The notes under the pieces were generated by a model. That model was not told the origin of the DNA. It was given only the letters and a program-made list of their open reading frames with translations, and did not search any database. DNA of 39,256 nt from Thermoplasmatales archaeon (GTDB taxonomy: Archaea; Thermoplasmatota; E2; DHVEG-1): the NCBI GenBank assembly GCA_020350365.1, contig CP070712.1, positions 198,402 through 237,657 of the forward strand. The letters run 5' to 3'. Within the stretch, counting starts at the first letter, position 1; each line of letters starts with the position of its first letter. Made by a program: the position numbers and the translations under genes. Shown here piece by piece: positions 12,932-34,525 of this stretch.

Positions 12932-12935
12932 TTTT

Positions 12936-13688
12936 TCATCTCATAGAAGGATTTTCTTTCATACCTTCCCATATTTTCTTTACAAATCCTTCCCTTTCAA
13001 TATCTATAAACTCCCCAAGATTTTGGTCTTTTCTAGCTAAATTAAAGGCTTTGAGATTTCGGCGAGTAAATTGCGTAGTACAAGGTGAAATTATTTCAAC
13101 AAATGCAAAACCTCTTTGTCCTTTCTCAAATGCTTTTTTAATTGAATTCTCTAGTTGACTTTTATGTGAAGTACTCCATCTAGCAGCATAAGAGGCTCCC
13201 GCACTTGCAACTAACCTTGCCAAATCAAAGGAATATTCCATATTTCCAGCAGATGTTGTACTTGTAATAGCCCCAGCAGGTGTGGTAGGACTGTATTGGC
13301 CACCAGTCATTCCATAAACCAAGTTATTAACACATATTGTTGTTATTTCAACATTTCTTCTTGCTGCATGAATAAGGTGATTTCCGCCAATTCCAGCAAG
13401 ATCTCCATCACCACTTATTACCACCACTTTTAAATTTGGATTAGCAATTTTAACTCCAGTTGCAAAAGTTATGGGACGTCCGTGTGTTGTATGAATAGTA
13501 TCTGCTTTAAAATGAGGACTTGGAATCCATGCTGCACAACCTATACCACTCAGGAATACAAAATCATCTGTATTACCATATAAATCATTTATAGCTGAAA
13601 GTACTGAATCAACTATTTTTTCGTTTCCACAACCTAGACAGAATTTTGGTACTACACGTAAAAATTTTTCATGGATTTCTTTAATCAT
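12936..13688 (-). CDS. korB: 2-oxoacid:ferredoxin oxidoreductase, beta (TPP-binding) subunit
   Basis: Carries thiamine diphosphate and an Fe-S cluster. 250 residues. CLGCGNE (Cys17, Cys20) and FLSGIGCAAW (near 45-54) supply cluster cysteines. The TPP motif GDGDLAGIGGNHLIHAARRN (about 94-113) with NN at 119-120 binds Mg-TPP, and YGMTGGQYSPTTPAG follows. The length is short, as in Kor-type beta subunits. The start overlaps the korA stop as ATGA, so the alpha and beta subunits are translationally coupled. Confidence 0.94.
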   Translation of the reverse strand: MIKEIHEKFLRVVPKFCLGCGNEKIVDSVLSAINDLYGNTDDFVFLSGIGCAAWIPSPHFKADTIHTTHGRPITFATGVKIANPNLKVVVISGDGDLAGIGGNHLIHAARRNVEITTICVNNLVYGMTGGQYSPTTPAGAITSTTSAGNMEYSFDLARLVASAGASYAARWSTSHKSQLENSIKKAFEKGQRGFAFVEIISPCTTQFTRRNLKAFNLARKDQNLGEFIDIEREGFVKKIWEGMKENPSMR

Positions 13689-14845: not shown

Positions 14846-14901
14846 CTTATTATTTTACTCCTCAGTTCTCATATAACCCATCTAATTAGGTGTTTATTAA
14901 T

Positions 14902-14926
14902 AGAACCATTATAATCATAATGTTCT
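14902..14926 (-). other. Hairpin between frdA-like and korA genes
   Basis: AGAACCATTAT and ATAATGTTCT pair over 10 bp with one bulged C and a 4-base loop (14913-14916). It lies in the 89-base gap 14846-14934. No T-tract follows on the minus strand, so it could be an RNA-processing or partial-termination element, or an operator; nothing decides which. Confidence 0.35.
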
Positions 14927-14934
14927 GTTAATCA

Positions 14935-16554: not shown

Positions 16555-16559
16555 TTTTT

Positions 16560-17258
16560 TCACCTCTTACTTTCCTCTGGTTCTATGTCTCTTTTATTAT
16601 ACAATTTCCTTAGTAAATGAACATCTGACTTCATCAAATTTGATAATTCTTTATCGAATTTACCCTCAGAAATTTCAGCTGCTCTAGTCCTAACATGCTC
16701 TGCTTTTGGAGTCATATACTTACCATACAACCGACGACAAAGTAGCGCAATATTATACTGAACAATTTCTGCTGGACATCTAGCTGCACATAATCCACAC
16801 ATTATACAATCAAATGATATGTCAGCAGCACTTTTGATATCACCCTTGAGTGCGGCCTGCATATAATCCATTACTTCAATATCCTGAGGACAAACCTTAG
16901 TACAAGTATTACAACTAACACATCTAGCCAGTTCAGGATATAATTTCAGTAGTGTTCCACCAGTAGGCTTTAGTTCATCTAGATTATAATCGGCTTTATT
17001 TGCTGGAAAAAATGGTATCTGAACTAGATACATATTTTCTACTACTTTTGTTTGACATGCAAGGCCTGACTGAAGCTTGTAATCACCCTTAAATCTGTAA
17101 ACCGTCCCGCATCCACCACAGAAACCACCTCGGCAACCACAACCTCTAATATACCTATAGCCTGCATATTCCATTGCTTTCATAATTGTAAGACCATTTG
17201 GAACTAGATATTTTTTACCAGTAATATAAATTGGAATTAATTTTTTAGCTTCAACCAT
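16560..17258 (-). CDS. FrdB/SdhB-like iron-sulfur protein ([2Fe-2S] plus two [4Fe-4S])
   Basis: Electron-transfer partner of the flavoprotein that follows. 232 residues. The N-terminal plant-type [2Fe-2S] domain has Cys40, 42, 47, 50 and 68 (GCGCRGGFCGGCG, GLACQ). The C-terminal ferredoxin domain has CVSCNTCTKVCP (113-123) and CIMCGLCAARCP (151-161). Ordinary SdhB carries [3Fe-4S] in one position; here both sets have four cysteines, pointing to two [4Fe-4S]. No HdrB-like CCG domain is fused, unlike thiol:fumarate reductase TfrB, and no membrane anchor is encoded nearby, so the pair is predicted soluble. It sits 3 bases after the double HdrA gene and starts with GGAGG. Confidence 0.88.
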   Translation of the reverse strand: MVEAKKLIPIYITGKKYLVPNGLTIMKAMEYAGYRYIRGCGCRGGFCGGCGTVYRFKGDYKLQSGLACQTKVVENMYLVQIPFFPANKADYNLDELKPTGGTLLKLYPELARCVSCNTCTKVCPQDIEVMDYMQAALKGDIKSAADISFDCIMCGLCAARCPAEIVQYNIALLCRRLYGKYMTPKAEHVRTRAAEISEGKFDKELSNLMKSDVHLLRKLYNKRDIEPEESKR

Positions 17259-17261
17259 ATA

Positions 17262-20200
17262 TTAACCTCCTTTGTTAGAATATACATCTATCATGGCAAG
17301 AACTTGTCCATCTGTAAAACCAAGATGAGAAATAGCACCATTGAGACAAGCAGCAGAACAAGTACCACATCCTTTACAAAGAGCACTATTTACAGTTGCT
17401 ACTGTCATCTTATGACCTAAATTATCTATTTCTTTTAATTCAATGGCATTATAAGGACAGAGCTCAACACAAGTTCCACATCCTCTACACAAATCCTCTA
17501 AGATTAAAGAAACATTGGCTTCAATTTTGTATTTATCTTTAGAAAGTAGGACACCTGCTCTAGACGCAGCAGCAAATGCTTGAGAAATAGATTCTGAAAT
17601 AAACTTTGGAGAGTGGCATGTACCTGCAACAAATATCCCCTCAGTAGAGAAATCTACAGGCCGTAGTTTTACATGGGCTTCTAAAAAGAATCCATCGGAA
17701 TTTAATGGTACCTTTAACATTTTAGCAATTTTTTCGTTATCTAAACTTGGTTTAAGACCAGTTGAGAGAATGAGATAATCTGTTGGTATTTCAAGCAATT
17801 CTTGCATCAAAGGTTCATAAAATTTAACTATCATATTGTTATCTATAAGCACCTCTGGTTTTCTATTTTCATCATATTGTAAAAACATAATGCCTTTCTC
17901 TCTTGCCTCTTTATAGAATCTTTCTTTAAAACCATAAGTCATCATATCTCTATATATTATGAATACCTCAGCCCTGGGATTAATATCTTTTAATTTAATT
18001 GCATTTTTCAAAGCTTGTATACAGCAGGTACGGCTACAAAATGGCCTATCATTATCTCTTGATTCAACACATTGGATCATAACATAGGTTTCACCATTTT
18101 GAATTTCTTCAGGTTTTGCTAGACCCAATTTTTTTTCTAATTCTCGCTGAGTGATAACCCTTGAGTCTTTTCCATAATGATATGATTTGGGAACGTATTC
18201 CTGTGTTCCCACAGTAACAATTGTAACACCATGGTTGATTTCTTTTTCTCCTTTTGGTGTTTCTATTATCGTTTTAAAATTACCAACAAAGCCCTCAATG
18301 ATTTTTAATTTTGAGTCAGTAAAAGTTGTTATTAGTTTATGATTCAGGACTTTTTCTTTTGTATCTGCAAGATATTTTTTGATATCAGGATGTTCTAATG
18401 AATAACTAATATATCTTAATTTTCCACCTAATGATGATTCTTTTTCTACAATAAAAACCTTGTAACCTTGATCTGCTATCGAGAGTGCAGCTGTCATACC
18501 AGAGACACCACCCCCTATAACCAGTGCCTTCTGGGTGACATCTACCTCCATATCTGAAAGGGGGTTAAGAAGTCGGGCCTTTGCAACACTCATTGCAATC
18601 AATGTCTTTGCCTTTTCAGTCGCCTTGGTTTTATCAGTCATATGAACCCATGAACATTGCTCCCTTATGTTTACCATCTCAAAGAGATGAGGATTTAATC
18701 CAGCTTCCTTCAAAATTCTCTTGAATACTGGTTCATGTGTTCTTGGTGTACAAGCCGCTACAACTAATCGGTTTAAATTGTATTTTTTTATGGTTTCTGC
18801 AATTTTTTTCTGAGTATCTTGTGAACAGGTGTATATGTATTCTTCAGCAAAAACAACATTATCAAGTGACTGGGCAAATTTTACAACATTTGGAACATCA
18901 ATATATCCACCTATATTTATTCCACAATCACAAACAAATACACCAGTTCGGGGTTTTTGTTCAGATACGTTTTTCTCAGCAGGAAATTTCCTTTCTTTTA
19001 CTAGTGTACCACGAGAGTGCCTTAGTAACTCTGCTACTTTTGACGCTGCAGCTGATGCCTGCATTACTGATTCAGGAATGTCTTTGGGTTCAATAAACGA
19101 GCCAGCAATAAAAACACCTGGTCTAGAAACAGTAACTGGACTTTGAGGATTTACTTCAACAAAATCAAATTCATTTCTCTTCAAATCCATTTTATCAAGG
19201 AATGTTTTTCGAGCATTAGTAGTACATAATCCAATTGACAAGACTACCATATCAAAAATCTCTTCTTTTAGGTCGCCTGATTCATCCTCATATCTTACAA
19301 TTAGATTCTTTGTTTTTTTATCTTCAAATATCTCAGATAGGCGTGAACGTACATATCTTATTTTATGCTCTTTTTTTGCTTGGTGAATATATTTATCAAA
19401 ATCTTTACCAAATGAGCGAACATCAATATAAAAAATAGTAGGATGAATATTTGAATCATGCTCTTTTGCAATTATTGCTTCTTTTGCTGTATACATACAG
19501 CACATCGCTGAACAATATTCGTTACCAATAGATTTATCGCGAGATCCAACACATTGAACCCAAGCTATTTTCTTTGGTTTCTTCTGATCGCTAGGTCTTA
19601 CAATCTTACCTTTAAAGGGACCAGAAGGTGATAAAATTCGCTCAAACTCTAAACTAGTCAAAACATTGTCATATTTTTTATAACCAAACTCAGGTTTAAT
19701 GATAGGGTCAAATGGTTGTGCACCTGTTGCGATAATTACTGCACCAACATTCAACTTTAAGTTTTCAGGTTTTTCATCATGGTTTATAGCTCCAGCTTTA
19801 CAAACTTTTACACATTTACCACAATCAACACAACCTTTATGCTCTCCATCTCCCTCCTTATCTATTATAAAAGCATTTGGAATCGCTTGTGGATAATACT
19901 TGTAAATAGCTTTTCGTTCGGAGAGCCCATGATCAAATTCCGTCGGTAAAGATATAGGGCATGCCTCAGTACAATCACCACATGAAGTGCAAAGCTCAAG
20001 GTCAACATATCGTGGTTTTTTCAAAACCTTAACAATTAAGTCACCAGGTTCACCTTCGATAGCTTGAACCTCGGAATTAGTAATAATTTCAATATTTTCA
20101 TGTCTTCCACAGTCAACAAGTTTCGGAGAAAGTATACACATGGAGCAATCATTAGTGGGAAATGTCTTGTCGAGTTTGGCCATAATGCCTCCAATTGCAG

Positions 20201-20321
20201 GAGTTTTTTCTATAAGATAAACCTTGAATCCCATTTCAGCAAGGTCTAAGGAGGATTGAATACCTGTAATACCTCCTCCAATTACTGCAACAGCACCGAT
20301 CTTGTCTGATTTATTTCCCAT
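17262..20321 (-). CDS. hdrA: Double HdrA fusion (two FAD modules plus ferredoxin domains)
   Basis: Cytosolic flavin/Fe-S electron hub, 1019 residues. Module 1 starts directly with the Rossmann FAD motif IGGGITGIQ (14-22) and NDCSMCIL (57-64). It contains an inserted ferredoxin (CTSCGDCTEACP 111-122; CVDCGKCVKVC 164-174) and continues to about 440. Module 2 begins with the usual HdrA N-terminal domain (VFVCDCGINIGG, near 461; CTPRTHEP, 524-531) and a second FAD motif IGGGVSGMT (602-610), lacks the inserted ferredoxin, and ends with two [4Fe-4S] motifs (CRGCGTCVELCP and CKGCGTCSAAC, about 945-991). Typical methanogen HdrA is about 650 residues with one FAD module. Its place just before the Frd-like pair suggests it passes electrons to or from them. 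Confidence 0.92.
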   Translation of the reverse strand: MGNKSDKIGAVAVIGGGITGIQSSLDLAEMGFKVYLIEKTPAIGGIMAKLDKTFPTNDCSMCILSPKLVDCGRHENIEIITNSEVQAIEGEPGDLIVKVLKKPRYVDLELCTSCGDCTEACPISLPTEFDHGLSERKAIYKYYPQAIPNAFIIDKEGDGEHKGCVDCGKCVKVCKAGAINHDEKPENLKLNVGAVIIATGAQPFDPIIKPEFGYKKYDNVLTSLEFERILSPSGPFKGKIVRPSDQKKPKKIAWVQCVGSRDKSIGNEYCSAMCCMYTAKEAIIAKEHDSNIHPTIFYIDVRSFGKDFDKYIHQAKKEHKIRYVRSRLSEIFEDKKTKNLIVRYEDESGDLKEEIFDMVVLSIGLCTTNARKTFLDKMDLKRNEFDFVEVNPQSPVTVSRPGVFIAGSFIEPKDIPESVMQASAAASKVAELLRHSRGTLVKERKFPAEKNVSEQKPRTGVFVCDCGINIGGYIDVPNVVKFAQSLDNVVFAEEYIYTCSQDTQKKIAETIKKYNLNRLVVAACTPRTHEPVFKRILKEAGLNPHLFEMVNIREQCSWVHMTDKTKATEKAKTLIAMSVAKARLLNPLSDMEVDVTQKALVIGGGVSGMTAALSIADQGYKVFIVEKESSLGGKLRYISYSLEHPDIKKYLADTKEKVLNHKLITTFTDSKLKIIEGFVGNFKTIIETPKGEKEINHGVTIVTVGTQEYVPKSYHYGKDSRVITQRELEKKLGLAKPEEIQNGETYVMIQCVESRDNDRPFCSRTCCIQALKNAIKLKDINPRAEVFIIYRDMMTYGFKERFYKEAREKGIMFLQYDENRKPEVLIDNNMIVKFYEPLMQELLEIPTDYLILSTGLKPSLDNEKIAKMLKVPLNSDGFFLEAHVKLRPVDFSTEGIFVAGTCHSPKFISESISQAFAAASRAGVLLSKDKYKIEANVSLILEDLCRGCGTCVELCPYNAIELKEIDNLGHKMTVATVNSALCKGCGTCSAACLNGAISHLGFTDGQVLAMIDVYSNKGG
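18442..18476 (-). repeat. 35-nt exact match shared with the other double-HdrA gene (copy 1)
   Basis: Identical to 23733-23767 over 35 bases, including third codon positions. Both copies encode the second beta strand of the second FAD-binding fold (ADQGYKVFIVE). Surrounding DNA of the two paralogs is much more diverged, so this may be a gene-conversion tract or strong local constraint. Confidence 0.6.
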
Positions 20322-20328
20322 CTTTTAT

Positions 20329-20988
20329 CTACCTTTTTGTGTACCCCTCTTTAATTGCTATTTTTCTTATTGCGCTCATTAACTTTGGAATCTCAACATC
20401 CTGTGGACATTGGGTTATACATCGATAATGCGTTGAGCATATCTCCACAAAATCATTGGAAAAAACATTGCCTTTCATACCTAAAAGGACGTTTTTGATA
20501 ACCTTTCTAGGAGAATACTTAGGATCAAGATCACGTTCAGGACAACCTGCCGTACATGTTCCGCATGAAAAACAATTGTAGATATCTTTACCCGATTCAC
20601 AATCCACGATTTTATATTTAAATTCTAAATCAAGATGTTTTTTTGCCTTTATGCCTGATACATCTTCCATTTGTTCTTCGAACAGTCGTTCGTTTCTAAC
20701 TGCATTCATAATTCCTTTAATATTTACCTCTTGAGGGCATTTTTCCAAACAGCGATAATGATCTGAACATATCCAGATAAATTCACTTGATAATACTTCG
20801 TCCTTAAGACCAAATAACGCCTTTCTGATGATAACACGAGGATTCCAATCTTCCTTTACTTTTTGTTCTGGACAGCGAGCAGTACACGCACCACATGCAA
20901 AACATTTTAGAATACCTTCGCCACCTTCTTCTCGGGCAATTTGAAACTTGAATTTGGAATCGATCTTTTTACTATCTATAGCGTCCAT
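20329..20988 (-). CDS. hdrC: Tandem HdrC-like iron-sulfur protein
   Basis: Two HdrC units in one 219-residue chain. Each unit has CxxCxxCxxxCP, a helical stretch with an R(V/K)(I/V)I(R/K)...L.G.K pattern, and a second cluster motif with a four-residue first gap (ICSDHYRCLEKCP / ICSTHYRCITQCP). That gives four predicted [4Fe-4S] sites. Unit 1 begins CFACGACTARCP and unit 2 CFSCGTCTAGCP. I chose the ATG at 20988, one base after the upstream stop and 9 bases after GGAG, over the ATG at 21018 that would overlap the FrhB-like gene. No HdrB is adjacent, so it may wire the FrhB-like/MvhD proteins to the double HdrA. Confidence 0.88.
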   Translation of the reverse strand: MDAIDSKKIDSKFKFQIAREEGGEGILKCFACGACTARCPEQKVKEDWNPRVIIRKALFGLKDEVLSSEFIWICSDHYRCLEKCPQEVNIKGIMNAVRNERLFEEQMEDVSGIKAKKHLDLEFKYKIVDCESGKDIYNCFSCGTCTAGCPERDLDPKYSPRKVIKNVLLGMKGNVFSNDFVEICSTHYRCITQCPQDVEIPKLMSAIRKIAIKEGYTKR

Positions 20989-20989
20989 T

Positions 20990-22108
20990 CTACTTTTCTC
21001 CAACCTCTTGATATTCATCCTCTTTGTAGATTACCATCGGAATCTTTTTCTCTATATCAATACCGGGGGAATAATCAAATTCTTTCTGAGCATTTTCACC
21101 AATTGGAATTATTATTTCCATCAAGGGAATATCACTTGGGCATGCTTGTTCGCAAAGCCCACATCCAACACATGAGACAACCATATGATTCATCCTTGTC
21201 GTATGAAAAAGAAGTGAATCATTTGGCATCTTAAACAAACCCTTTTTTTCAGCCTTTCCAATGTATTTATTAGCCTCTAAATTAAAAACAGATGAATCAA
21301 AAAGACATTCCTTACAATAACAGATTGGGCACACCTTCATACAGTTATGACAATTTATGCATTTATCAAAGAATTTCGCGAGTGCATCGATTCCTTTTAT
21401 TTTGCCTCCTTCCTTAATAAAATCAATTCGGTTTTTATTTTTTTCTTCTCGAATATTTTTTACAGATATTTCTCTATTTTTAGTATCTTTTGCACTATCT
21501 AGTTTTATTCCTTCTATTAATTTTTTACCTTTATCACTATTTATTTGGATTAATAACTCTTTTTTTGGATTCATATCATAGAGTCCAATGAGTAAATCAG
21601 CGTTAATTGGTATAGGATCCTTACAAGATTTACAAGCCGATCTAAGATATTTTATATCATTACTATTTTTAGGAAAATTGCTTAATAAATAATTTGTGGG
21701 AGTTGTATTTTCAGGAAAATCAGAATAGACATTCACTGGGTAGGTCCCCAGACAATCTATACCTATAATTACAATATTATCTATATTTGCCTGATTTAAT
21801 TTTACTAGTTCTATAAGCGCTCGTATCTGGCATGATCTCATTACAACACCAATTGGTTTACTTGAACTCTCAATTTTTGTAATTTTGGAGATAATTGATG
21901 CTGTTGAAACAGGTAGAACTGGAGCAAAAACATTTGAATTAAGTTTATCAGGGTTAGAAATTAAAACAGGAAAAGCCATTGCTTTTGATGGGACTTCCTG
22001 CATAACTAATAATGCCTGTACTTTCTTTGAGTTAAGTAAATCTTTTAATAAATCATTAACAGATCCGACAGTATCTCCATTTTTTACCTTCAATATTTTA
22101 TCTGTCAT
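20990..22108 (-). CDS. FrhB/FdhB-family protein, probable F420-interacting Fe-S flavoprotein
   Basis: 372 residues of the coenzyme F420 hydrogenase/dehydrogenase beta-subunit family, which carry FAD and exchange hydride with F420. Family signs are PIGVVMRSCQIRALIEL (about 85-101) followed by IVIIGIDCLGTYP, and a C-terminal ferredoxin region CINCHNCMKVCPICYC then CVGCGLCEQACP. The order of parts (a C-terminal rather than N-terminal ferredoxin pair) resembles FdhB-like/HdrA-associated members. It follows mvhD by 15 bases. In related archaeal complexes MvhD links such subunits to HdrA, so this is a plausible F420H2 port. Use of F420 is inferred; other hydride carriers are possible. Confidence 0.85.
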   Translation of the reverse strand: MTDKILKVKNGDTVGSVNDLLKDLLNSKKVQALLVMQEVPSKAMAFPVLISNPDKLNSNVFAPVLPVSTASIISKITKIESSSKPIGVVMRSCQIRALIELVKLNQANIDNIVIIGIDCLGTYPVNVYSDFPENTTPTNYLLSNFPKNSNDIKYLRSACKSCKDPIPINADLLIGLYDMNPKKELLIQINSDKGKKLIEGIKLDSAKDTKNREISVKNIREEKNKNRIDFIKEGGKIKGIDALAKFFDKCINCHNCMKVCPICYCKECLFDSSVFNLEANKYIGKAEKKGLFKMPNDSLLFHTTRMNHMVVSCVGCGLCEQACPSDIPLMEIIIPIGENAQKEFDYSPGIDIEKKIPMVIYKEDEYQEVGEK

Positions 22109-22123
22109 CTCAAATCGCCCCTG

Positions 22124-22546
22124 TTAAATATTCCAATGTTTTGAAATTGGATTTGGACCAAGTTTTTTGATTTCTTCTGTCATTTCCTTTATTGTATCAG
22201 CAAATTTTTGTCCTTCCGATGCAGAAACCCATCTAATCCAAACTCTTTCTTTTTCTAGACCTATTGTATCTAGAATTGACTTCAAAAGAACAGATTTTCT
22301 CCTAGCTTTGTAGTTTCCATCAAGGTAATGACAATCACCAGGATGGCAACCTCCGATGAAAACTCCATCAGCTCCCTCTAAAAGTGCACGCATAATATAT
22401 ACGGAGTCCACAGATCCTGAGCACATAACCTTTATGACTCTTATATTTGGAGGATACTGTATCCTACTCGTACCAGCTAAATCTGCCCCGGCATAACTAC
22501 ACCAGTTACATAAAAAGCCTACTATTTTTGGTTCGAATTCTTCCAT
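22124..22546 (-). CDS. mvhD: MvhD-like iron-sulfur adaptor
   Basis: Small [2Fe-2S] protein that connects HdrA to a hydrogenase or dehydrogenase. 140 residues from the ATG at 22546, which has GGTGAT 4 bases upstream; an ATG 12 bases earlier lacks a ribosome-binding site. Cysteine pattern: FLCNWCSYAGADLAG (Cys13, Cys16), VKVMCSGSVD, and GGCHPGDCHY with the following NYKARRK. No Mvh hydrogenase large or small subunit is encoded in the window; the FrhB-like gene next to it is the obvious partner. Confidence 0.94.
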   Translation of the reverse strand: MEEFEPKIVGFLCNWCSYAGADLAGTSRIQYPPNIRVIKVMCSGSVDSVYIMRALLEGADGVFIGGCHPGDCHYLDGNYKARRKSVLLKSILDTIGLEKERVWIRWVSASEGQKFADTIKEMTEEIKKLGPNPISKHWNI

Positions 22547-22573
22547 ATTAATCACCATTTAATCTCATATTTA

Positions 22574-25500
22574 TCACTCTAAACAGGCATCAATCATCGA
22601 GATTACCTGTTTTTTTGTAAATGTGTTCTGTTGGGATACACCACTTGGACATACTGCTGAACATGCACCACATCCTTGACACAAAATTTCATTTACTTTT
22701 ACAATCCTTTTTTCTTCATCAAATTCTATAGCATCATATGAGCAAACATCAATACATAATTTACATCCTGCACAATTTCTAGAAGTAATATGTGCGATAT
22801 TTCCTTTAGTTTCAAGATAAGGTTTTGAAAGAATTGTTGCAGCTCTAGCACCAGTTGCCTTTGCTTGAAGAATGGATTCCTCAATAAATCTAGGTGAATG
22901 TGCAAGACCGCAAAGATAAATACCATCGGTTGAGAAATCCACTGGTCTCAGTTTGACATGAGCCTCAGCAAAAAACTTATCTTCATTTAATGGTATTTTC
23001 AATTTTTGGGTTATTTCTGAATTATCTCGTGGAATAATTCCTGTACTTAAAACCAGTTTATCAGGATGAAGTATAACATTTTGTCCAAGAATAAGATCTA
23101 TTGTCTTAACCGATATTTTATCTTGATGAAGATTGACCTTTGGCTCATCATCTTCATTAAATCTGATGAAAATTATTCCTTTTTTACGTGCCTTACTATA
23201 CAACATGTCTTCTTTGAAACCATAGGTTCGAATATCTCTATAAAGGACAAAAATATTAACCTCAGGGTTAATCTCTTTTAATTTTAATGCATTCTTTAAA
23301 GCTTGTGAACAACATATCCTGCTACAATATGGATGATCACTATTGCGAGATCCAACACATTGAATCATTACAACTTCTTTTAAATTCTTAAGATAACTTT
23401 TATTATCAAATAATTCCTTTTCAAAGTCTGTTTGTTTAATTATATTTTTATCTTTTCCATATTGATATTCAACAGGTTCGTATGGAATCCCTCCTGTTGC
23501 TACAACTATAACACCATGCTTTATTTCTTTAATATCCTTATTATTTTTTGATTTTAATTTTGTGTTAAAATTACCAATATATCCTGATACCGAGTCAATT
23601 TTAGTGTTTATAAATAATTCAATATTTGAATGATTTTTTATATTTTTAATTGTCTCTCTTAATAGATCCTGTGGCTTTTCTTTATCAATACCCATGTATA
23701 TATTTTTTAAATGTCCACCTAGTTCACTTTCATTTTCTACAATAAAAACCTTGTAACCTTGATCTGCAATTGCAAGAGCTGAAGTCATACCCGCAATTCC
23801 TCCACCGATTACCAATGTGCTTTGAGTAACCGGAGTCTGAAAATGATGAACAGGATATAGTTTTGAAGCTTTTGATACTGCCATTCTAACAGCATCTACT
23901 GCTTTTTCAGTTGCAGCTTCAGGTTCATTTTTATGAACCCATGAGTTTTGATCTCTTATATTTGCCATCTCAAAAAGATGTGGATTCAATCCTGCCTCGC
24001 GAAGTGTGTCCTTAAACAAAGGTTCATGTGTTCTAGGTGTACATGATGAAACCACAATACGATTTAAATCAAGCTCCTTTATTTTGTTCTTTATGTTTTC
24101 CAGTGAATCCTGCGAACAAGCGTAGATGGTTTCCTCAGCATATACGACATGAGGAAAAGTTTCTGCGGATTTCACAACCTTTTTAACATCAACCACGCCA
24201 GCTATATTTATTCCACAATGACAAACAAAAACTCCTATCCTTGGATACTTATTACTAATATCGATTTCTTCGGGGTATATCTTTTCTATAATCTCTGTTC
24301 CTCTTGCAACAGAAATATCTTTTGCAGCCTCAACAGCAGCTGCTGAAGCCTGAGTAACGCTTTCAGGTATATCTTTAGGTTCAGTTACAGTTCCTGAGGA
24401 ATATATGCCTTTTCTTGATGTAAGTGTTTTAAAGAAAGGAGATGTTTCAACAAAACCATATTGATTTAGATTAACATCAAGAATTTTGCTTAAATCTCCA
24501 AGTGCATTACATGGCTGTAACCCTACCGAGAGTACAACCATATCATATGTTTCATCCTTTACCTTACCCTCATCATCTACATAACCAATCTTAAGATTTT
24601 TTGTCTTAATATCTTGTTCTACTCTAGGAATACGACATCGGCGATAAACTACACCATATTCTTCTTTGGCTTTGTTATAATATTTTTCAAAATCCTTTCC
24701 AAAAGAACGCAAATCCATGAAATAGATATGTGTTTCAAGGCCGGGTTCATGCTCCTTTGCAATCACTGCTTCTTTGGTTGCATACATACAACAAACTGAA
24801 GAGCAGTATGGCTTATTGCAACTTTCATCTCGTGATCCAACACATTGTAGCCAAGCAATCTTTTTTGGTTGATTCCCATCTGATATCCTCTGAATATGAC
24901 CACCATATGGTCCAGAGGCCGATAGCATACGCTCGAACTCAATGCTTGTCAATACATTTGGATATACCTTGTATCCATAACTGTCCCCTCTGGGCGGAAT
25001 ATAATTATCGAAACCAGGAGAAACAATTACTGAACCAACATTAATCCTAATTTCTTGGTCATTTTGATCATGCTTCAATGCATCTTTTTCACAGAATTTC
25101 TCACAGGCCTTGCAAGTACCATTAAGATAATACATACATGCCTCTTTGTCGATAACAGGAACATTAGGAATAGCTTGGGGGAACGGAACATATATTGCAC
25201 TACGATTGTTTAGTCCAGCGTTAAATTCGTTGATGAGAGGTTCAGGTTTGTTCCTGCTTAAATCTGATAAGTTTATGCATTGTGTAGGACATACAAAAGC
25301 ACAGGCACCACAGGTCATGCAAACTTCAGAAAACTTATCAAATGGGTTCATGACCTCTCTATTTACACCACGATTGGCAAAACCAAGGGCACTTACTCCC
25401 ATTACCTGATCACATACCCTCACACACATGCCACACAAAATACACTGAGTATCGATATCAGATTTACTCTCGAATCTAGTTTCTTTAACCCCTAATTTTA

Positions 25501-25819
25501 AAGCAAATTCTTTAAGAAAATCTGATTGAGGGCATCTGGCCAAATAAAGTTCCATTAAAACTTTCCTTGCTCTCTGAATCCTTTGAGTAACAGTCTTAAT
25601 CTCCATTCCATCTATAATTTTCAAGTTACAGGAGGTAGTGAGCCATGTTTTTCCTCCTTGAGTAACCTCTACAACACATAGTCTACAAACACTGTAGGGT
25701 TCTATTACCGGATGATGACATAAAGTAGGAATGAAAATATTATTTTTCTGTGCGACCTCCAGAACAGTCTCATCTGGATTTGTTTCGTATTTTTTAGAGT
25801 CGATAACGATGGTGACCAT
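22574..25819 (-). CDS. NuoG-N domain fused to a headless HdrA plus a second full HdrA module
   Basis: 1081-residue Fe-S/flavin protein. Residues 1-165 match the N-terminus of NuoG/HydA-type subunits: [2Fe-2S] Cys34, 45, 48, 64 (CRLCVVEV, TTSCN) and further cysteines through CILCGMCVRVC (126-136). From CMTCGACAFVCP (167-178) on, it follows HdrA (RSAIYVPFPQAIPNVPVIDKE, CKACEKFC, ASGPYGGHIQR, CSSVCCMYATKEAVIAKEHE) but lacks the HdrA Rossmann start, which is instead found in the gene at 27679-28683. A second HdrA module begins near 520 (VFVCHCGINIAG), has FAD motif IGGGIAGMT, and ends with two [4Fe-4S] motifs. The start directly follows the NuoF stop and has GGAGGTGG. Probably forms one complex with the two genes upstream. 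Confidence 0.9.
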   Translation of the reverse strand: MVTIVIDSKKYETNPDETVLEVAQKNNIFIPTLCHHPVIEPYSVCRLCVVEVTQGGKTWLTTSCNLKIIDGMEIKTVTQRIQRARKVLMELYLARCPQSDFLKEFALKLGVKETRFESKSDIDTQCILCGMCVRVCDQVMGVSALGFANRGVNREVMNPFDKFSEVCMTCGACAFVCPTQCINLSDLSRNKPEPLINEFNAGLNNRSAIYVPFPQAIPNVPVIDKEACMYYLNGTCKACEKFCEKDALKHDQNDQEIRINVGSVIVSPGFDNYIPPRGDSYGYKVYPNVLTSIEFERMLSASGPYGGHIQRISDGNQPKKIAWLQCVGSRDESCNKPYCSSVCCMYATKEAVIAKEHEPGLETHIYFMDLRSFGKDFEKYYNKAKEEYGVVYRRCRIPRVEQDIKTKNLKIGYVDDEGKVKDETYDMVVLSVGLQPCNALGDLSKILDVNLNQYGFVETSPFFKTLTSRKGIYSSGTVTEPKDIPESVTQASAAAVEAAKDISVARGTEIIEKIYPEEIDISNKYPRIGVFVCHCGINIAGVVDVKKVVKSAETFPHVVYAEETIYACSQDSLENIKNKIKELDLNRIVVSSCTPRTHEPLFKDTLREAGLNPHLFEMANIRDQNSWVHKNEPEAATEKAVDAVRMAVSKASKLYPVHHFQTPVTQSTLVIGGGIAGMTSALAIADQGYKVFIVENESELGGHLKNIYMGIDKEKPQDLLRETIKNIKNHSNIELFINTKIDSVSGYIGNFNTKLKSKNNKDIKEIKHGVIVVATGGIPYEPVEYQYGKDKNIIKQTDFEKELFDNKSYLKNLKEVVMIQCVGSRNSDHPYCSRICCSQALKNALKLKEINPEVNIFVLYRDIRTYGFKEDMLYSKARKKGIIFIRFNEDDEPKVNLHQDKISVKTIDLILGQNVILHPDKLVLSTGIIPRDNSEITQKLKIPLNEDKFFAEAHVKLRPVDFSTDGIYLCGLAHSPRFIEESILQAKATGARAATILSKPYLETKGNIAHITSRNCAGCKLCIDVCSYDAIEFDEEKRIVKVNEILCQGCGACSAVCPSGVSQQNTFTKKQVISMIDACLE
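23733..23767 (-). repeat. 35-nt exact match shared with the other double-HdrA gene (copy 2)
   Basis: Second copy of the segment at 18442-18476, in the second FAD-binding fold of this gene. Confidence 0.6.
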
Positions 25820-27682
25820 TCAATCCACCTCCACCGCATCGAATTTACAGACCTGATAGCATAGTCCACATTTAATACAAGTTTTATTATCGATTATGTG
25901 AATATTTTTCTTCTCACCACGTATAGCTCCAACTGGACAGTTTTTTACGCATAACTGACAACCTGTACATTTGTCTCCTTTTATATTATATGTAATTAAC
26001 GTCTTACAAGCATGAGCTGGACATTTTTTATCTTTGATATGAGCCTCATATTCATGCTTAAAATATCTAAGAGTAGTAATAATAGGATTAGGAGCTGTTT
26101 TACCCAATTGACACAAAGAGGTATCCTTGACCGCTTCTGCTAGTTCAGTCAGTAGGTCTATATCACCTTCTTTTCCTTTACCCTCAGTTATTTTTGTAAG
26201 GGTTCTATGCATCTGATCAAGGCCTTCTCGACAGGGGGTACATTTTCCGCAGGATTCATCCTTCAAAAAGTTTACAAAATATTTAGCAACGTCAACCATG
26301 CAGGTATTCTCATCCATTACTATCATTCCACCAGAACCCATCATGGCTCCGGTTTCAATAAGACTATCATAATCAACAGGAAGATCCAATTTTTCTTCAG
26401 GGATGCAACCTCCGGAGGGACCTCCGGTTTGGACTGCTTTAAATTTTTTACCATTTAGCACTCCCCCTCCAATATCATAGATTATGTTTCTGAGTGAGAT
26501 ACCCATCGGAACCTCAACCAATCCAGTATTATTGATCTTACCTACAACAGAAAAAATCATTGAACCTGGAGAGTTTTTAGTCCCTAACTGACGATATTTC
26601 TTCACTCCGTTTCTTAGAATATACGATACATTAGCCCAAGATTTTACATTATTAATGTTAGTAGGTTTCCCCCAGAGACCACTTTGTGCAGGATAAGGTG
26701 GACGTGGTCTTGGTTCACCAGACCTACCTTCAATTGAAGCCATTAAAGCTGTTTCCTCACCACATACAAAGGCACCTGCTCCTCGAGATATTTTTAAATC
26801 AAAGGAAAAATCAGTACCAAGGATTTTATTACCAAGGAGACCATATTCATACATTTGTTTAATTGCTATCTCTACATTTTTTGTTGCCAACGGATATTCC
26901 TTTCTTACGTAAATATAGCCCTTACTTGCTCCGATAGCGTGGGCTCCGATCAACATTCCTTCAAGAACCATATGTGGATTTCCTTCCAATATTGACCGAT
27001 CCATAAAAGCACCTGGATCGCCCTCATCAGCATTACAGATGACATATTTCGGTTGCCCAGTTGCTTTTTTAGCAAACTCCCATTTTAATCCAGTACTGAA
27101 ACCTGCTCCCCCTCTTCCTCTAAGTCCAGACTCTTTTATATCTTCAATAATCTTATCAGGATTCATATCTAAGGCGCTTTTCAAACCTTCGTATCCACCT
27201 ATCGACATATAATCCTCAATTTCTGTAGGATCAATTAGTTCATTATTTCCAGAGATAACTCGTATTTGATTCTTATAGAACGGAATATCATTGATTTTTA
27301 CAATTGCTTTTTTACTGACAGGGTCATTCCATAAAAGTTCGTTTATAACTTTACCGTTCTTGACAGTATTGCTGACAATATCTTTAACTCGTGCTGGGTC
27401 AACCTTTGGATAAAAAATTCCTTCGGGAAGTATAAGAAGAATAGGTTCCTGGGAACAATATCCTATACAACCACTGGTTCTAACATTAATTCCCTCAAGA
27501 TTCTCTTCTTTAAGTGCATCTTTCACAGCTTTTAAAATATCTTGAGATCCGCATGCTCTACCACATGTCCCTTCAGGGATAACAATAGTTTTTCCATTAT
27601 ACTTTTTTCTATTAGTTTTAAGCTTATCAATAAGGGAGCCGAGTTCTTTTTTTGACTTCAGCTTCTTAGTTCCCTCGCTCAC
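25820..27682 (-). CDS. nuoF: NuoF/HydB-like NADH-binding flavoprotein
   Basis: NAD(H)- and FMN-binding subunit, 620 residues. The thioredoxin-like [2Fe-2S] domain at 30-110 has Cys40, 44, 72 and 76. The FMN/NAD core has GLRGRGGAGFSTGLKW (about 192-207), ICNADEGDPGAF and GAGAFVCGEETALM. The SLBB region is followed by the N3 cluster motif ESCGKCTPCREG (about 475-486). A C-terminal ferredoxin has CTGCQLCVKNCP and CIKCGLCYQVC. This is the layout of HydB/HndC and of NuoF in NADH-dependent bifurcating hydrogenases and dehydrogenases. It uses a GTG start overlapping the previous stop as GTGA, with GAGGAGGT upstream. It is predicted to give the complex an NADH port. Confidence 0.95.
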   Translation of the reverse strand: MSEGTKKLKSKKELGSLIDKLKTNRKKYNGKTIVIPEGTCGRACGSQDILKAVKDALKEENLEGINVRTSGCIGYCSQEPILLILPEGIFYPKVDPARVKDIVSNTVKNGKVINELLWNDPVSKKAIVKINDIPFYKNQIRVISGNNELIDPTEIEDYMSIGGYEGLKSALDMNPDKIIEDIKESGLRGRGGAGFSTGLKWEFAKKATGQPKYVICNADEGDPGAFMDRSILEGNPHMVLEGMLIGAHAIGASKGYIYVRKEYPLATKNVEIAIKQMYEYGLLGNKILGTDFSFDLKISRGAGAFVCGEETALMASIEGRSGEPRPRPPYPAQSGLWGKPTNINNVKSWANVSYILRNGVKKYRQLGTKNSPGSMIFSVVGKINNTGLVEVPMGISLRNIIYDIGGGVLNGKKFKAVQTGGPSGGCIPEEKLDLPVDYDSLIETGAMMGSGGMIVMDENTCMVDVAKYFVNFLKDESCGKCTPCREGLDQMHRTLTKITEGKGKEGDIDLLTELAEAVKDTSLCQLGKTAPNPIITTLRYFKHEYEAHIKDKKCPAHACKTLITYNIKGDKCTGCQLCVKNCPVGAIRGEKKNIHIIDNKTCIKCGLCYQVCKFDAVEVD

Positions 27683-28683
27683 CTAATGACCTCCTCGGTT
27701 TTGGTTGATGCATTAAGGTTTATAAATTGCTCAAGTGTATTCTTGAAAGTTCCTGGTTTCACCATGTAATAACCATCATCGATGACTACAACAGGACCTA
27801 AAGCACAAGCACCAAGACAATTAACAGTTTCTAATGTAAACATACCATCTTCGGTAGTTTCTCCAGGTTTAATTTTAAGATATCGCTTAATTTCGTCTAA
27901 TAATTGCGGACTACCACGTACATGACAAGCAGTTCCCATGCAGACTTTAATTGTGTACTTGCCACGTGGTTTTAAAGTAAAAGAAGTATAGAATGTAGCC
28001 GCTTGATATACCTTTGAAAACGGGATGTTTAGTTCTTGTGAAACATATTTTAGTATATTTTCCGGAAGAAAGTTATAAATATCATCAATATCTTGCAAAA
28101 TAGGTATAAGTGAACCAGTTTCACTACCATGTTTTTTTATTATCTCATCTAGTTTATTGATATCCTTTTCTTCTAAATCTTCCTTAGCATCACTTTTTTG
28201 TGGTTTAATGGGTTTGTATCTTACAAGACAGTTCTCGACACAGATTCCACAGCCATTGCAGATATCTTCAGAAACTGATCTTGCCCTTTTGTTTATTGTT
28301 ATTATAAAATTTCCAGAGTTTCCTTCAATTTTTTTTAAATCAGAATAAGTTATAAGTTCAATATTTGGATGCCTTCCAGTAGACACTAGCTTTGGGCCAA
28401 GAATGCACATTGCGCAGTCATTTGTAGGAAAGGTTTTGTCTAATTGTGGCATTTTGCCACCAATACTTGGTCCTTGCTCCAGAATATAAACCTTAAAACC
28501 TGCATCGGCAAGATCCAGAGCCGATTGTATACCTGATATGCCACCCCCTAAAACTAATACCGCTCCAATTTTTTTATTATTGCTAATTGAAGTCTGAGAA
28601 TGTATATCCTTTGAATTTTCATCCTTAGGTTCAATAGTCTCAGTTATACTGAGGACTGATTCATCATTTTCAGTGGCATTCAT
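27679..28683 (-). CDS. HdrA N-terminal FAD fold fused to a NuoE-like [2Fe-2S] domain
   Basis: 334 residues. After a hydrophilic leader of about 38 residues, the HdrA FAD motif LGGGISGIQSALDLADAG is at 45-62, with IGGKMPQLDKTFPTNDCAMC following. HdrA homology stops just after CNGCGICVENC (142-152), the first ferredoxin motif. Residues 170-334 are NuoE-like: YQAATFYTSF, then [2Fe-2S] Cys248, 253, 289, 293 (CMGTACHVRG, NCLGACALGP). The missing remainder of this HdrA appears in the gene at 22574-25819. The intact domains and 4-base overlaps on this side argue against a frameshift. NuoE plus NuoF form the usual NADH module, so this protein physically joins that module to an HdrA flavin site. Confidence 0.9.
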   Translation of the reverse strand: MNATENDESVLSITETIEPKDENSKDIHSQTSISNNKKIGAVLVLGGGISGIQSALDLADAGFKVYILEQGPSIGGKMPQLDKTFPTNDCAMCILGPKLVSTGRHPNIELITYSDLKKIEGNSGNFIITINKRARSVSEDICNGCGICVENCLVRYKPIKPQKSDAKEDLEEKDINKLDEIIKKHGSETGSLIPILQDIDDIYNFLPENILKYVSQELNIPFSKVYQAATFYTSFTLKPRGKYTIKVCMGTACHVRGSPQLLDEIKRYLKIKPGETTEDGMFTLETVNCLGACALGPVVVIDDGYYMVKPGTFKNTLEQFINLNASTKTEEVIR

Positions 28684-28722
28684 ATTTTATTTTACTCCCA
28701 AATTATTTAATAAATCGCAATT

Positions 28723-30678
28723 TTAGGTTACCTCTTCAATCATACGGAGAATTTGTTCTTTTGTATAGTTCTTATGAATTGAGGCATTACTAGGGCATGC
28801 TGAAATACAAGAACCGCATCCAACACATAATGCCTCATTTACTTCCGCAATCTTTTTTATTTCATGCAGCTTTCGAGCATTATATGCGCAGACCTCCAAA
28901 CATATTCCACAGCCAGTGCATATGTCCTCATCTACAGCAGCAATTAATGGATCAATTTCTAATTCAGATTTAGAAAGAATTGTTAATGCTCGAGCTGCAG
29001 CACCACTTGCTTGTGCTACAGTTTCTGGTATGTCCTTTGGGGCTTGGGCACAACCCATAAGAAAAATCCCAGCAGTCAATGTTTCAACAGGACGAAGTTT
29101 TGGATGAGCTTCATTAATAAAACCATAGGTGTCCGTAGATATCTTCAATTTTTTTGCTAATTCTTTTGTATCTTTATTCGGAACTGCAGCCATGGCTAAT
29201 ACAACCATATCTGCCGCAATTTCGATTTTTTTACCTGTAAGTGTGTCTACACCCCAAACTATAAGCTTACCATCATCACCAACATCTTTAAAAATTCTGG
29301 AAACCTTTCCTCTCAAATAGATTATTTTTTCATCTTCTACAGCTTTTTGGACAAATTCTTCGTAACCTTTTCCACCAGAGCGGATGTCAATATAAAAAAC
29401 ATAAGCTTGACCATCGTGAACAGCATGTTTGTATAGTAATGCATGCTTAGCAGTATACATACAACAAATCTTAGAGCAATAGGGCATCCCATGCTCGGGA
29501 TCTCGTGAGCCAACACATTGGACAAATACAATATCCTTTGGAATCTTACCATCTGAAGGTCTTTTTATCTTTCCTGCAGTGGGTCCAGAAGCAGACAATA
29601 ATCGTTCAAACTGCAATCCATCAATTACATCCTGATACTTCCCATATCCATATTCGCCAATGCTTTCCTTTGGTAAAAGATCAAAACCGGTAGCTACTAA
29701 TATTACCCCAATCTCCTCTTCTATAGTTGTTTCTTTCTGATCATAATCTATTGCGCCAATAGGACAGTTTTTTTCACAAAGTTTACATTTACCTGTTTTG
29801 AAATATATACAATGATTACTATCAATTACAGGTTTTTTTGGAACGGCTTGTGGAAATGGTATATAAATTGCTTTTCGAGTACCCATATCACGTTCGAATT
29901 CAGAGGAAATCTTGGTTGGGCATTTTTCAGAACATATTCCACAGCCAGTGCATTTATCCCAGTCAACGTAAGCAGGTTTTTTTCTAATCTTAACCTTAAA
30001 ATTACCTAAATATCCTTCAACTCCCTCCACTTCTGAATAGGTAAGAAGTTTAATATTTGGATGATGTCCAACCTCTACTGTTTTAGGTGTTAATATACAA
30101 GAAGCACAATCCAAAGTCGGAAATGTTTCAGATAGCTGCGACATCCGCCCTCCAATAGAAGAGGTTTTTTCTACTAGAACGACTTCATATCCACTGTTGG
30201 CAATATCTAAAGCAGCTTGCATACCACTGATACCCCCACCTATAACCAGTGCCTTTCTTGTAACTGGGATATTTATTGCACTAAGAGATTGATTTAATTT
30301 TAATTTTTCAATTATGCTTTTGATTATCTCTATTGCTTTCTCAGTTGCTATCTTATTATCTTTGTGAACCCAGCTACATTGCTCTCTGATGTTTGCATTC
30401 TCGAATTGATATTTGTTTAAACCTACTGAGCTAATTGCATTTCTAAAAGTAGTTTCATGAAGAGTAGGGGTACAAGCAGCAACAATAACTCCATCCAATT
30501 TTTTCTCAACAATTGCACTCTTAATCATCTCCTGACCAGGATCTGAACACATATAGGTATAGTCCACGACATGAGCTACATTTGGATGTTTACCTATGTC
30601 CTCGACTACCTTTTTTATATCTACAGTATCTGCAATATTCAGACCACAATGACAAACGAATACCCCTATTCGTTTCAT
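28723..30678 (-). CDS. hdrA: HdrA, canonical length
   Basis: Flavin-based electron-bifurcating core subunit of heterodisulfide reductase-type complexes, 651 residues, close to the methanogen length. The N-terminal domain has VFVCHCGLNIAD and CTPTLHE, followed by the FAD motif IGGGISGMQ (146-154). CASCIL lies at 191-196, the inserted ferredoxin has CTGCGICSEKCP (243-254) and CKLCEKNCP, and CSKICCMYTAKHALL follows. Two C-terminal [4Fe-4S] motifs are CTGCGICLEVC and CVGCGSCISACP. The start overlaps the hdrB stop by 4 bases. Together with HdrB and the BlaI-HdrC fusion it makes one complete HdrABC set; the other HdrA forms in the cluster are fusions. Confidence 0.95.
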   Translation of the reverse strand: MKRIGVFVCHCGLNIADTVDIKKVVEDIGKHPNVAHVVDYTYMCSDPGQEMIKSAIVEKKLDGVIVAACTPTLHETTFRNAISSVGLNKYQFENANIREQCSWVHKDNKIATEKAIEIIKSIIEKLKLNQSLSAINIPVTRKALVIGGGISGMQAALDIANSGYEVVLVEKTSSIGGRMSQLSETFPTLDCASCILTPKTVEVGHHPNIKLLTYSEVEGVEGYLGNFKVKIRKKPAYVDWDKCTGCGICSEKCPTKISSEFERDMGTRKAIYIPFPQAVPKKPVIDSNHCIYFKTGKCKLCEKNCPIGAIDYDQKETTIEEEIGVILVATGFDLLPKESIGEYGYGKYQDVIDGLQFERLLSASGPTAGKIKRPSDGKIPKDIVFVQCVGSRDPEHGMPYCSKICCMYTAKHALLYKHAVHDGQAYVFYIDIRSGGKGYEEFVQKAVEDEKIIYLRGKVSRIFKDVGDDGKLIVWGVDTLTGKKIEIAADMVVLAMAAVPNKDTKELAKKLKISTDTYGFINEAHPKLRPVETLTAGIFLMGCAQAPKDIPETVAQASGAAARALTILSKSELEIDPLIAAVDEDICTGCGICLEVCAYNARKLHEIKKIAEVNEALCVGCGSCISACPSNASIHKNYTKEQILRMIEEVT

Positions 30679-31568
30679 TCTTTATTCTGCCCTCCTAATA
30701 ATTTTCTTTTATTAAGAAGCGGTCTTGGATCAACAAAATGCTCACCAAATTCACATAAATCTTCGTCAAGAATTAATGCAATTGCCAGAAGTTGGGTGAA
30801 ATAAAAAATCGGTTTAAAATTAAACTCATTATATCTATTTTTAACATCTTTCTGTCGATAATCTAGATTAAAGAAACACAAGGGGCAGCCTACAACAATT
30901 GCATCTGCACCTCTTGTATTTGAATCATCGATAATCATTTTTGTTCGTTCAATTACCGGATCGATATCATTGACAGTATGATATGATCCACAACACTCGA
31001 TTTTAAAAGGACTTTCAATAACCTCTCCGCCTAAAGCTTCGATGAAATCCTCCATTATCCTTGGAGCTTCAATATCATCTAAACCTATACCCTCTGGTCG
31101 TAATAAAAGACAACCATAGTAGGGAGATAATTTAAGACCCTTTAGAGGTCTATTTACCTTTTCTTTTATCTTACTGAATCCAATTTCATCTCTTAAAAAC
31201 TCTAAAAGATGCAAAACAGTAACATTTCCATTATAATCTTTTTCTTCGTCCAAGAAATTGTTGATACGATCTCTCTTTTCAGCATCCTCCAAAATTATCC
31301 TATTGGTTTGTTTAAGTGTGTTATAGCACATTGCACATAATGTCACAACTTTATCTGTTCCAGTCTCTAACACTCTTATGAAGTTTCTTACAGGTGCTAG
31401 TTGATGCATTAAGTCATCAGTTGCTAGCGAATGTACTGTACCACAGCAATTCCATCGGGGCAATTCAATTATTTTATGACCTAGCTTTTTCATTGATGCT
31501 ATAGCGGGCATTTCAAAATTTTTAGCAGTTGTCTTTAAAGTACATCCGGGATAATAACAAAGCTCCAT
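30675..31568 (-). CDS. hdrB: HdrB, disulfide-active CCG-domain subunit
   Basis: 297 residues with two CCG domains that bind the noncubane [4Fe-4S] clusters reducing disulfides in methanogens. Domain 1: CYYPGC (4-9), WNCCGTVHS and TLCAMCYNTL. Domain 2: YYGCLLLRP, ECCGSYHT and VGCPLCFFNLD. It is the only HdrB in the window, so it is the only candidate disulfide site. The natural disulfide is unknown: no methanogenesis genes are seen, so CoM-S-S-CoB cannot be assumed. It begins 7 bases after the BlaI-HdrC stop. Confidence 0.94.
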   Translation of the reverse strand: MELCYYPGCTLKTTAKNFEMPAIASMKKLGHKIIELPRWNCCGTVHSLATDDLMHQLAPVRNFIRVLETGTDKVVTLCAMCYNTLKQTNRIILEDAEKRDRINNFLDEEKDYNGNVTVLHLLEFLRDEIGFSKIKEKVNRPLKGLKLSPYYGCLLLRPEGIGLDDIEAPRIMEDFIEALGGEVIESPFKIECCGSYHTVNDIDPVIERTKMIIDDSNTRGADAIVVGCPLCFFNLDYRQKDVKNRYNEFNFKPIFYFTQLLAIALILDEDLCEFGEHFVDPRPLLNKRKLLGGQNKE

Positions 31569-31575
31569 TTTTTCA

Positions 31576-32358
31576 CTACCCCGTCATCTTCCTAAAATTA
31601 CTAACAAGTGCTATTTGAGGAATATTTTCATCTATGTCTAAATCTGACAGTTCAACATAATTAGTGCTTTTTCTAAGTAATAATAATCTGAGTGCTTCCA
31701 TTACCTTTGCTAAATCTACACCCTTTGGGCATCTTGCAGAACATGAAAAACAAGTTGCACATAGCCATATAGTTTTAGATTTTAGAACATCATTAAACTG
31801 CCCAAGTTGAATTAATCTTATAATTTGGTTTGGCAATAAATCCATTAAAGAAACCATAGGACAACCAGCAGAACATTTTCCACATTGATAGCATGCTAAG
31901 ATCCTTTGCCCACTGACATCTTCAATCTTTTTAATAATCGAGTTTTGAATATCATTTCTATCTAGATTTATTCTTTTTTCTAAAAATGGAACGGAATCCA
32001 AAACATCAATAGGCTTTTCTTTAATAGATGACAACTGAATACTCTTCTCAGCGTCTAATTTATCTTTCAGATGGTCAATCCCTTCTTTACCAAATAGAAT
32101 ATTTACATCTTCGAGGACATCCGTAATAAAATCATCCTTGACGTCTTTGTATTCATAAGTATAACGAAAGGATCCTCGAAACGGTTCAGTTGTTCTCTTA
32201 ATCAAACCTCTTTTATGCATACGGGAGAGAACAGTGTTAACTGTAACATATGTACTAGCCATACCTTCTTTTCTTAATTTCTCAAAAATTTCTCTTGCAG
32301 TAATTTTTTTTTCTTTATGCAAGACAGATATGATCCTCTTTTCAAGAGAGCCTAACAT
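31576..32358 (-). CDS. BlaI/CopY-type winged-helix domain fused to HdrC
   Basis: 260 residues. Residues 1-75 match BlaI/MecI/CopY repressors: LEKRIISVLHKEKKITAREIF, then the recognition region STYVTVNTVLSRMHKRGLIKR and a wing ending RYTYEYKD. A helical linker (76-150) follows. Residues 151-230 are a standard HdrC with CYQCGKCSAGCP (Cys156, 159, 162, 166) and CATCFSCSARCP (Cys200, 203, 206, 210), and the R-LIQLG...VL.SKTIWLC pattern between them. It is the first gene of the HdrB/HdrA operon, and a TACANNTGTA palindrome lies in its own promoter. The likely reading is a redox-sensing autorepressor that is also, or instead of being, the HdrC subunit. There is no sign of a frameshift at the junction. 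Confidence 0.9.
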   Translation of the reverse strand: MLGSLEKRIISVLHKEKKITAREIFEKLRKEGMASTYVTVNTVLSRMHKRGLIKRTTEPFRGSFRYTYEYKDVKDDFITDVLEDVNILFGKEGIDHLKDKLDAEKSIQLSSIKEKPIDVLDSVPFLEKRINLDRNDIQNSIIKKIEDVSGQRILACYQCGKCSAGCPMVSLMDLLPNQIIRLIQLGQFNDVLKSKTIWLCATCFSCSARCPKGVDLAKVMEALRLLLLRKSTNYVELSDLDIDENIPQIALVSNFRKMTG

Positions 32359-32374
32359 ATATCCCCCGTGCTAT

Positions 32375-32396
32375 TACACCTGTAATACTACAGGTA
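32375..32396 (-). promoter_or_regulatory. Candidate operator for the BlaI-HdrC fusion
   Basis: TTACACCTGTAA (32374-32385) contains TACANNTGTA, the known CopY/BlaI-family box. A second arm TACAGGTA (32389-32396) makes a wider inverted repeat ACCTGT-N6-ACAGGT (32378-32395). The element sits between the TATA box and the start codon, over the expected transcription start, where bound repressor would block initiation. Confidence 0.6.
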
Positions 32397-32397
32397 T

Positions 32398-32406
32398 CTT
32401 ATAAGC
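32398..32406 (-). promoter_or_regulatory. TATA box of the hdr operon
   Basis: GCTTATAAG on the minus strand. Transcription would begin near 32377, inside the palindrome, leaving a leader of about 20 bases with GGGGGAT (32361-32367) as ribosome-binding site ahead of the ATG at 32358. Confidence 0.5.
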
Positions 32407-32452
32407 ATTTCGAAATAGATAATAGGTTTTAAAATATTTTTTATTAAAATTT

Positions 32453-32462: not shown

Positions 32463-32463
32463 G

Positions 32464-34520: not shown

Positions 34521-34525
34521 GATCT

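Follow-up and report, generated by a model that had tools for sequence, protein, structure and literature searches.

We report an archaeal gene that joins a BlaI/MecI/CopY-type DNA-binding part to a complete HdrC, and whose promoter holds a palindrome resembling the sites of that repressor family. Comparison among genomes gives good support to an Hdr subunit that carries an autogenous repressor. We put at roughly 60% the fuller reading, in which this electron-transfer subunit also serves to repress its own operon and would be released by assembly into the Hdr complex. The gene lies in a stretch of 39,256 nucleotides of a Thermoplasmatales archaeon (contig CP070712.1), called here the window, to which all coordinates refer unless a genome or locus is named. 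The genome of the window is denoted G000 (1.82 Mb). The same fusion, 77-78% identical over its full length, occurs in CP070724.1 of 'Thermoplasmatales archaeon bin45' (locus L032, genome G008) and in CSMAG_2770 (locus L033, genome G062).

A BlaI-type domain joined to a complete HdrC

The fusion gene and its parts are as follows.

31576..32358 (-): HTH-HdrC fusion gene, 260 aa with an ATG start; architecture repeated in L032 and L033
32044..32358 (-): BlaI/MecI/CopY-type part, residues 1-105, made up of a winged helix (1-75) and the putative start of a dimerisation region (76-105)
31978..32043 (-): linker, residues 106-127 (22 residues), with no visible constraint and a 3-residue indel
31579..31977 (-): complete HdrC domain, residues 128-260, with two CxxCxxCxxxCP [4Fe-4S] motifs

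Residues 2-84 match the Pfam family PF03965 (Penicillinase_R) with 41.2 bits against a cut-off of 22.6 (E 2.4e-10), and a profile of archaeal BlaI relatives found MecI (1.7e-12) and BlaI (1.3e-10) among its best matches in the PDB sequences. An AlphaFold model of residues 1-122 has a winged helix with pLDDT 74-92, an uncertain helix after residue 75 and low confidence in the rest; the top nine Foldseek matches of this model were all MecI/BlaI (E 1e-4, TM about 0.6). The original prediction of a BlaI/MecI/CopY winged helix in the N-terminal 75 residues is thus borne out as to the fold, but the repressor-type part is probably longer, extending to about residue 105. The Pfam match ends at profile position 82 of 115, and residues 76-105, where the model is of low confidence, align with the archaeal BlaI relatives, with F89, I94, L97 and L101 invariant. 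Among curated NCBIfam models the HTH scored only 19.2 bits with CopY (TIGR02698, cut-off 121.95 bits) and 15 bits with MecI; we would not assign the protein to the CopY subfamily, and with such low scores its operator specificity is to be taken by analogy. Designer pentatricopeptide repeats, which came top when the single protein was searched against PDB sequences, were rejected as sums of many weak repeats with a single E of about 1.

The C-terminal half is, as had been predicted, a normal two-cluster HdrC. It gives a Fer4_17/Fer4_8 dicluster match in Pfam (residues 154-215, E 2e-11), and the best NCBIfam model for the protein is HdrC itself (TIGR03290, 4.5e-20, residues 154-231). The equivalog cut-off of that model is missed (72 vs 160 bits), and this half is best regarded as an HdrC-like subunit, not assigned to the CoB-CoM heterodisulfide enzyme of methanogens. 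In an alignment with 21 stand-alone HdrCs, all eight cluster ligands (C156, C159, C162, C166 and C200, C203, C206, C210) are invariant. Stand-alone HdrCs that are 49-61% identical to this half have N-termini that align at about residue 128, indicating that the fusion partner of the BlaI-type protein was an entire HdrC, whose native N-terminal stretch has been kept. For these comparisons the BlaI relatives and the HdrCs were aligned to the fusion separately, as a joint alignment placed the BlaI relatives onto HdrC. A model of the full-length fusion was poor (mean pLDDT 59 overall, with the HTH poorly modelled); its HdrC half matches the HdrC of 7bkb, 8rvu and 5odc in Foldseek.

Comparison of the three fusions shows how selection is distributed along the protein. 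Pairwise dN/dS is 0.05-0.07 for the HTH, 0.08-0.15 for the dimerisation region and 0.10-0.12 for HdrC, whereas the linker gives 1.12 in one pair and 1.24 in another, the third being saturated. These ratios are rough because dS is high between the window and the other two genomes, with the HTH near saturation, but the contrast is plain from pN alone (0.05-0.12 for the HTH vs 0.33-0.49 for the linker). No other part of the protein is as constrained as the HTH, and such strong purifying selection points to a working part. Little in the linker appears to be held in place.

A conserved palindrome in the fusion promoter

The spacer upstream of the fusion gene holds the following elements.

32398..32405 (-): predicted TATA box CTTATAAG, with a conserved GAAAT upstream; conserved in all three genomes
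32387..32392 (no strand assigned): third half-site, ACTACA on + (TGTAGT on -), which with the adjoining arm forms GTARTATTAC
32372..32387 (no strand assigned): candidate operator palindrome TATTACACCTGTAATA, core TACANNTGTA, with 7-bp perfect arms; exact in all three fusion promoters
32361..32368 (-): short leader with a Shine-Dalgarno-like GGGGGAT (GGAGGAT in L032), from the sequence alignment

The promoter sequence, taken on the minus strand, is GAAATGCTTATAAGATACCTGTAGTATTACAGGTGTAATAGCACGGGGGATATATG. Between its TATA box and the ATG lies a 16-bp palindrome, TATTACANNTGTAATA, which is found without mismatch in all three fusion promoters. It extends from +15 to +30, counted from the TATA centre; on this scale the ATG lies at +44/+46. 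Its spacing to the TATA box is identical in all three, and it is predicted to overlap the transcription start. A palindrome between TATA box and start codon had been claimed from the window alone as TTACACCTGTAA; it is present and its core fits the BlaI/CopY box, but the site is longer, namely TATTACACCTGTAATA. The search for the same architecture in other genomes that had been proposed along with it yielded the two further genomes; the palindrome co-occurs with the fusion in both, exact to the letter, and the prediction is not refuted by fusion homologues that lack an upstream site.

In the aligned spacers, invariant columns number 7-9 of 10 per block over the TATA box and the palindrome, 5 in the block between them, and 1-3 of 10 per block in the 50 columns upstream; the Shine-Dalgarno-like stretch is conserved as well. 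Dinucleotide shuffles of the 105-bp spacer contained the core TACANNTGTA in 0.1% of cases, and 7-bp arms alone in an unremarkable 5%. What is decisive against a chance palindrome is the conservation of the site in every one of the three genomes that carry the fusion. Each of these genomes has a single copy of the exact 16-mer, always in the fusion promoter, and 3 of 76 other genomes of the class have one copy each, two of them intragenic and the third in a spacer with unrelated genes nearby. Other exact 14-mers lie inside genes in G000 and G008, with one intergenic copy in G062 that is not common to the others, so that no regulon was found.

The refined 16-bp cop operator, RNYKACANNTGTMRNY, is fitted at 14 of 16 positions, the outer R and Y failing. 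For CopY itself the 10-bp core alone is insufficient, and the refined consensus is longer (PMC7253601). The GTAATATTAC of the third half-site is perfect in L032 and L033 and has one mismatch in the window; this half-site may represent a second, overlapping register. On the coding strand, a run of ten T (32452-32464) just past the stop codon of the carboxyl-carrier gene is possibly an archaeal terminator that parts the carboxylase genes from the hdr promoter; it is not conserved in the other two genomes.

Distribution and origin of the fusion

The fusion was found in no other of 390 Thermoplasmatota genomes, several of those without it being incomplete; it is missing from two other genomes of the window's genus and from three of the genus of G008. 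Phyla beyond the Thermoplasmatota were covered by a pattern-based genome scan. Among the other fetched loci, HdrC stands alone in about 77 (from many bacterial phyla, Asgard archaea and Thermoplasmatota), and none carries an HTH on HdrC. With an archaea-biased profile, no stand-alone BlaI-type gene was found beside hdr within the flanks of the fetched loci. Long open frames ahead of HdrC in L096, L104, L106-L108 and L111 were considered as extra domains and rejected, since they look like low-complexity read-through in high-GC DNA. Stand-alone BlaI family proteins (L112-L118, PF03965 E 1e-21 to 1e-25) occur in related Thermoplasmatota that have no fusion.

Recovery of the fusion in three separate MAGs excludes an assembly artefact. 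In a tree of 117 HdrC domains, which has few columns and unsure deep forks, the three fused domains group in a single clade (99/98), pointing to one fusion event. This clade is separate from the HdrC that is usual in the family and that G000 carries in addition (G000:C1:982018), and the HdrC that took part in the fusion probably came in by transfer.

Gene neighbourhood

The operon continues downstream of the fusion as follows.

30675..31568 (-): HdrB, directly downstream of the fusion, with two CCG domains (TIGR03288, 5.6e-49); adjoins the fusion in all three genomes
12410..30678 (-): remaining genes of the operon, with HdrA, HdrA-NuoE, NuoF, HdrA with Fer2, MvhD/FlpD, an FrhB-like protein, double HdrC, double HdrA, SdhB/TfrB-like and SdhA/TfrA-like proteins, and 2-oxoacid:ferredoxin oxidoreductase subunits

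HdrA follows in the window and L033, and G008 has HdrB only; promoter, fusion and hdrB are kept in G008, where different genes follow them. The Spirochaetota loci L085 and L086 show largely the same Hdr order with an unfused HdrC, and similar gene sets occur in others too. As such Spirochaetota operons hold both a stand-alone and a double HdrC, HdrB most likely still has its working partner in the fused HdrC. The double HdrC of the window (20329-21018) has two dicluster units in one protein, and both it and the double HdrA (17262-20321) have relatives in the Spirochaetota loci. In G062, HdrA-NuoE, NuoF and HdrA-Fer2, which are separate genes in the window, form one open frame of about 1530 aa (L184:12327-16916).

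G008 has a second hdrB, 75% identical (L182:73-1285, G008:C1 about 841372-842584), which follows a remnant consisting of the last 26 HdrC residues. It adjoins an unrelated ORF, with further Hdr/Tfr/Kor genes beyond (L181), and looks like the product of a duplication and rearrangement in which the HTH and the promoter were lost. In the window the Hdr operon sits inside a biotin and methylmalonyl-CoA neighbourhood. Upstream of the fusion come a biotin-dependent carboxylase set (32464-36076) and then genes for a glyoxalase-family protein (methylmalonyl-CoA epimerase-like) and methylmalonyl-CoA mutase; biotin ligase and BioY-like genes (10885-12286) are found where the hdr operon ends.

Proposed mechanism and alternatives

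Family searches, fold comparison, the operator conserved in 3/3 genomes and purifying selection on the HTH all agree with the autorepression by the fusion that had been predicted. According to our model, the BlaI-type N-terminus would dimerise and bind the TACANNTGTA palindrome over the expected transcription start. Given this overlap, RNA polymerase would be unable to load while the palindrome is occupied; a site covering the transcription start is a usual mode of archaeal repressors (PMC5569661). The HdrC half would serve as the sensor. Free HdrC, in surplus over HdrB/HdrA or unable to take up partners or clusters, would leave the HTH dimer available and hdr transcription would stop. In an (HdrABC)2-type complex, on the other hand, the two HTHs would be held apart or buried and the operon released.

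That assembly, rather than the redox state of the clusters, is the signal is the least certain element of this model. We favour it since it explains the anatomy of the protein with fewer assumptions. It would be the simplest switch because the linker is unconstrained, HdrC in one studied case depends on HdrB for solubility and Hdr complexes are dimeric. In M. acetivorans HdrC2 is insoluble when HdrB2 is absent (PMC5296606), suggesting that free and bound HdrC differ greatly, and Hdr complexes are (HdrABC)2 dimers (PMC12350162). One may also consider, as had first been suggested, direct control of DNA affinity by the two [4Fe-4S] clusters of the fused HdrC, with oxidised, reduced and apo forms differing. 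The invariance of all eight ligands and the purifying selection on HdrC fit such a sensor, as does the tuning of CopY DNA binding by metal at C-terminal cysteines (PMC5772342), but a mere electron carrier would be expected to show this conservation too. Moreover, a 22-residue linker that drifts neutrally and varies in length offers no rigid path from cluster to HTH, which favours sensing by assembly over such allostery and makes direct sensing by the clusters the less likely reading. Should it hold, an electron-transfer subunit would pass its redox state or occupancy on to its own promoter with no separate sensor, and the repressor would report the electron pressure on an electron-bifurcating Hdr complex.

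The remaining alternatives concern the role of either half. The fused HdrC might be a dedicated regulator, electrons being transferred by the double HdrC or by the paralogue at G000:C1:982018. These two further HdrC-type genes in G000, and the second hdrB of G008 with its truncated hdrC, are in line with this, but the double HdrC coexists with a normal stand-alone HdrC in the related bacterial operons, and the fused half has kept its native N-terminal stretch and all ligands; we regard a purely regulatory HdrC as unlikely. The HTH could conversely be a relic, or a generic nucleic-acid tether with no control of the operon, the palindrome serving another regulator. The architecture is indeed rare and of single origin, the genomes also encode BlaI-like and Lrs14-like proteins that stand alone, and a stand-alone PF03965 protein of G000 (G000:C1:1432314) could bind the site instead. 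Yet the HTH (dN/dS 0.05-0.07) is under stronger constraint than the rest of the protein, which is hardly expected of a relic, and the palindrome accompanies the fusion in all three cases, so that a passive HTH seems quite improbable. It is finally conceivable that the protein activates the operon, as does HdrR of Methanosarcina barkeri, a separate winged-helix protein that binds a palindrome in the hdrBCA promoter (PMC11218639). The palindrome of the fusion promoter, however, lies downstream of the TATA box over the expected start, a repressing position. The characterised members of the BlaI family are, to our knowledge, repressors, and activation is the reading to which we give very little weight.

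If the HdrC half does act as the sensor, the Hdr operon of these uncultured archaea, a group in which hdr regulation has been little explored, would possess a self-contained feedback loop. It would then offer a clean case of feedback from subunit assembly, or from clusters, in archaeal transcription.

Relation to known systems

BlaI-family repressors are released by proteolysis or metal. The fusion shares with BlaI/MecI/CopY (PF03965; MecI 1okr/1sax, BlaI 1xsd) the winged helix, probably the start of the dimerisation region, and a TACANNTGTA-type site in its own promoter. Unlike in these proteins, a whole HdrC replaces the sensing part after the dimerisation region, so that the sensing part here is apparently a subunit of a central energy-converting complex. 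The fusion also lies far below the NCBIfam cut-offs of CopY, MecI and BlaI, and lacks the C-terminal CxC of CopY. With the HdrC of soluble HdrABC and Hdr-like complexes (TIGR03290; 5odc, 7bkb, 8rvu) it has in common the two 4Fe-4S motifs and an adjoining HdrB, but stand-alone HdrCs begin only where its residue 128 lies.

As in PutA and other trigger enzymes, the N-terminal DNA-binding domain of an enzyme polypeptide would act as repressor of the operon that encodes it. PutA, however, combines a ribbon-helix-helix with a flavin enzyme that moves to the membrane, whereas the protein that carries the winged helix here is a small iron-sulfur subunit belonging to a multi-subunit complex. The winged-helix protein HdrR of M. 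barkeri is likewise associated with a palindrome in an hdr promoter, but it is a separate protein and an activator, with no iron-sulfur domain described (PMC11218639). No HdrC fused to a regulator was found in the open-access literature. The pairing of HdrC with a repressor is new; the HTH family and the trigger-enzyme logic were already known.
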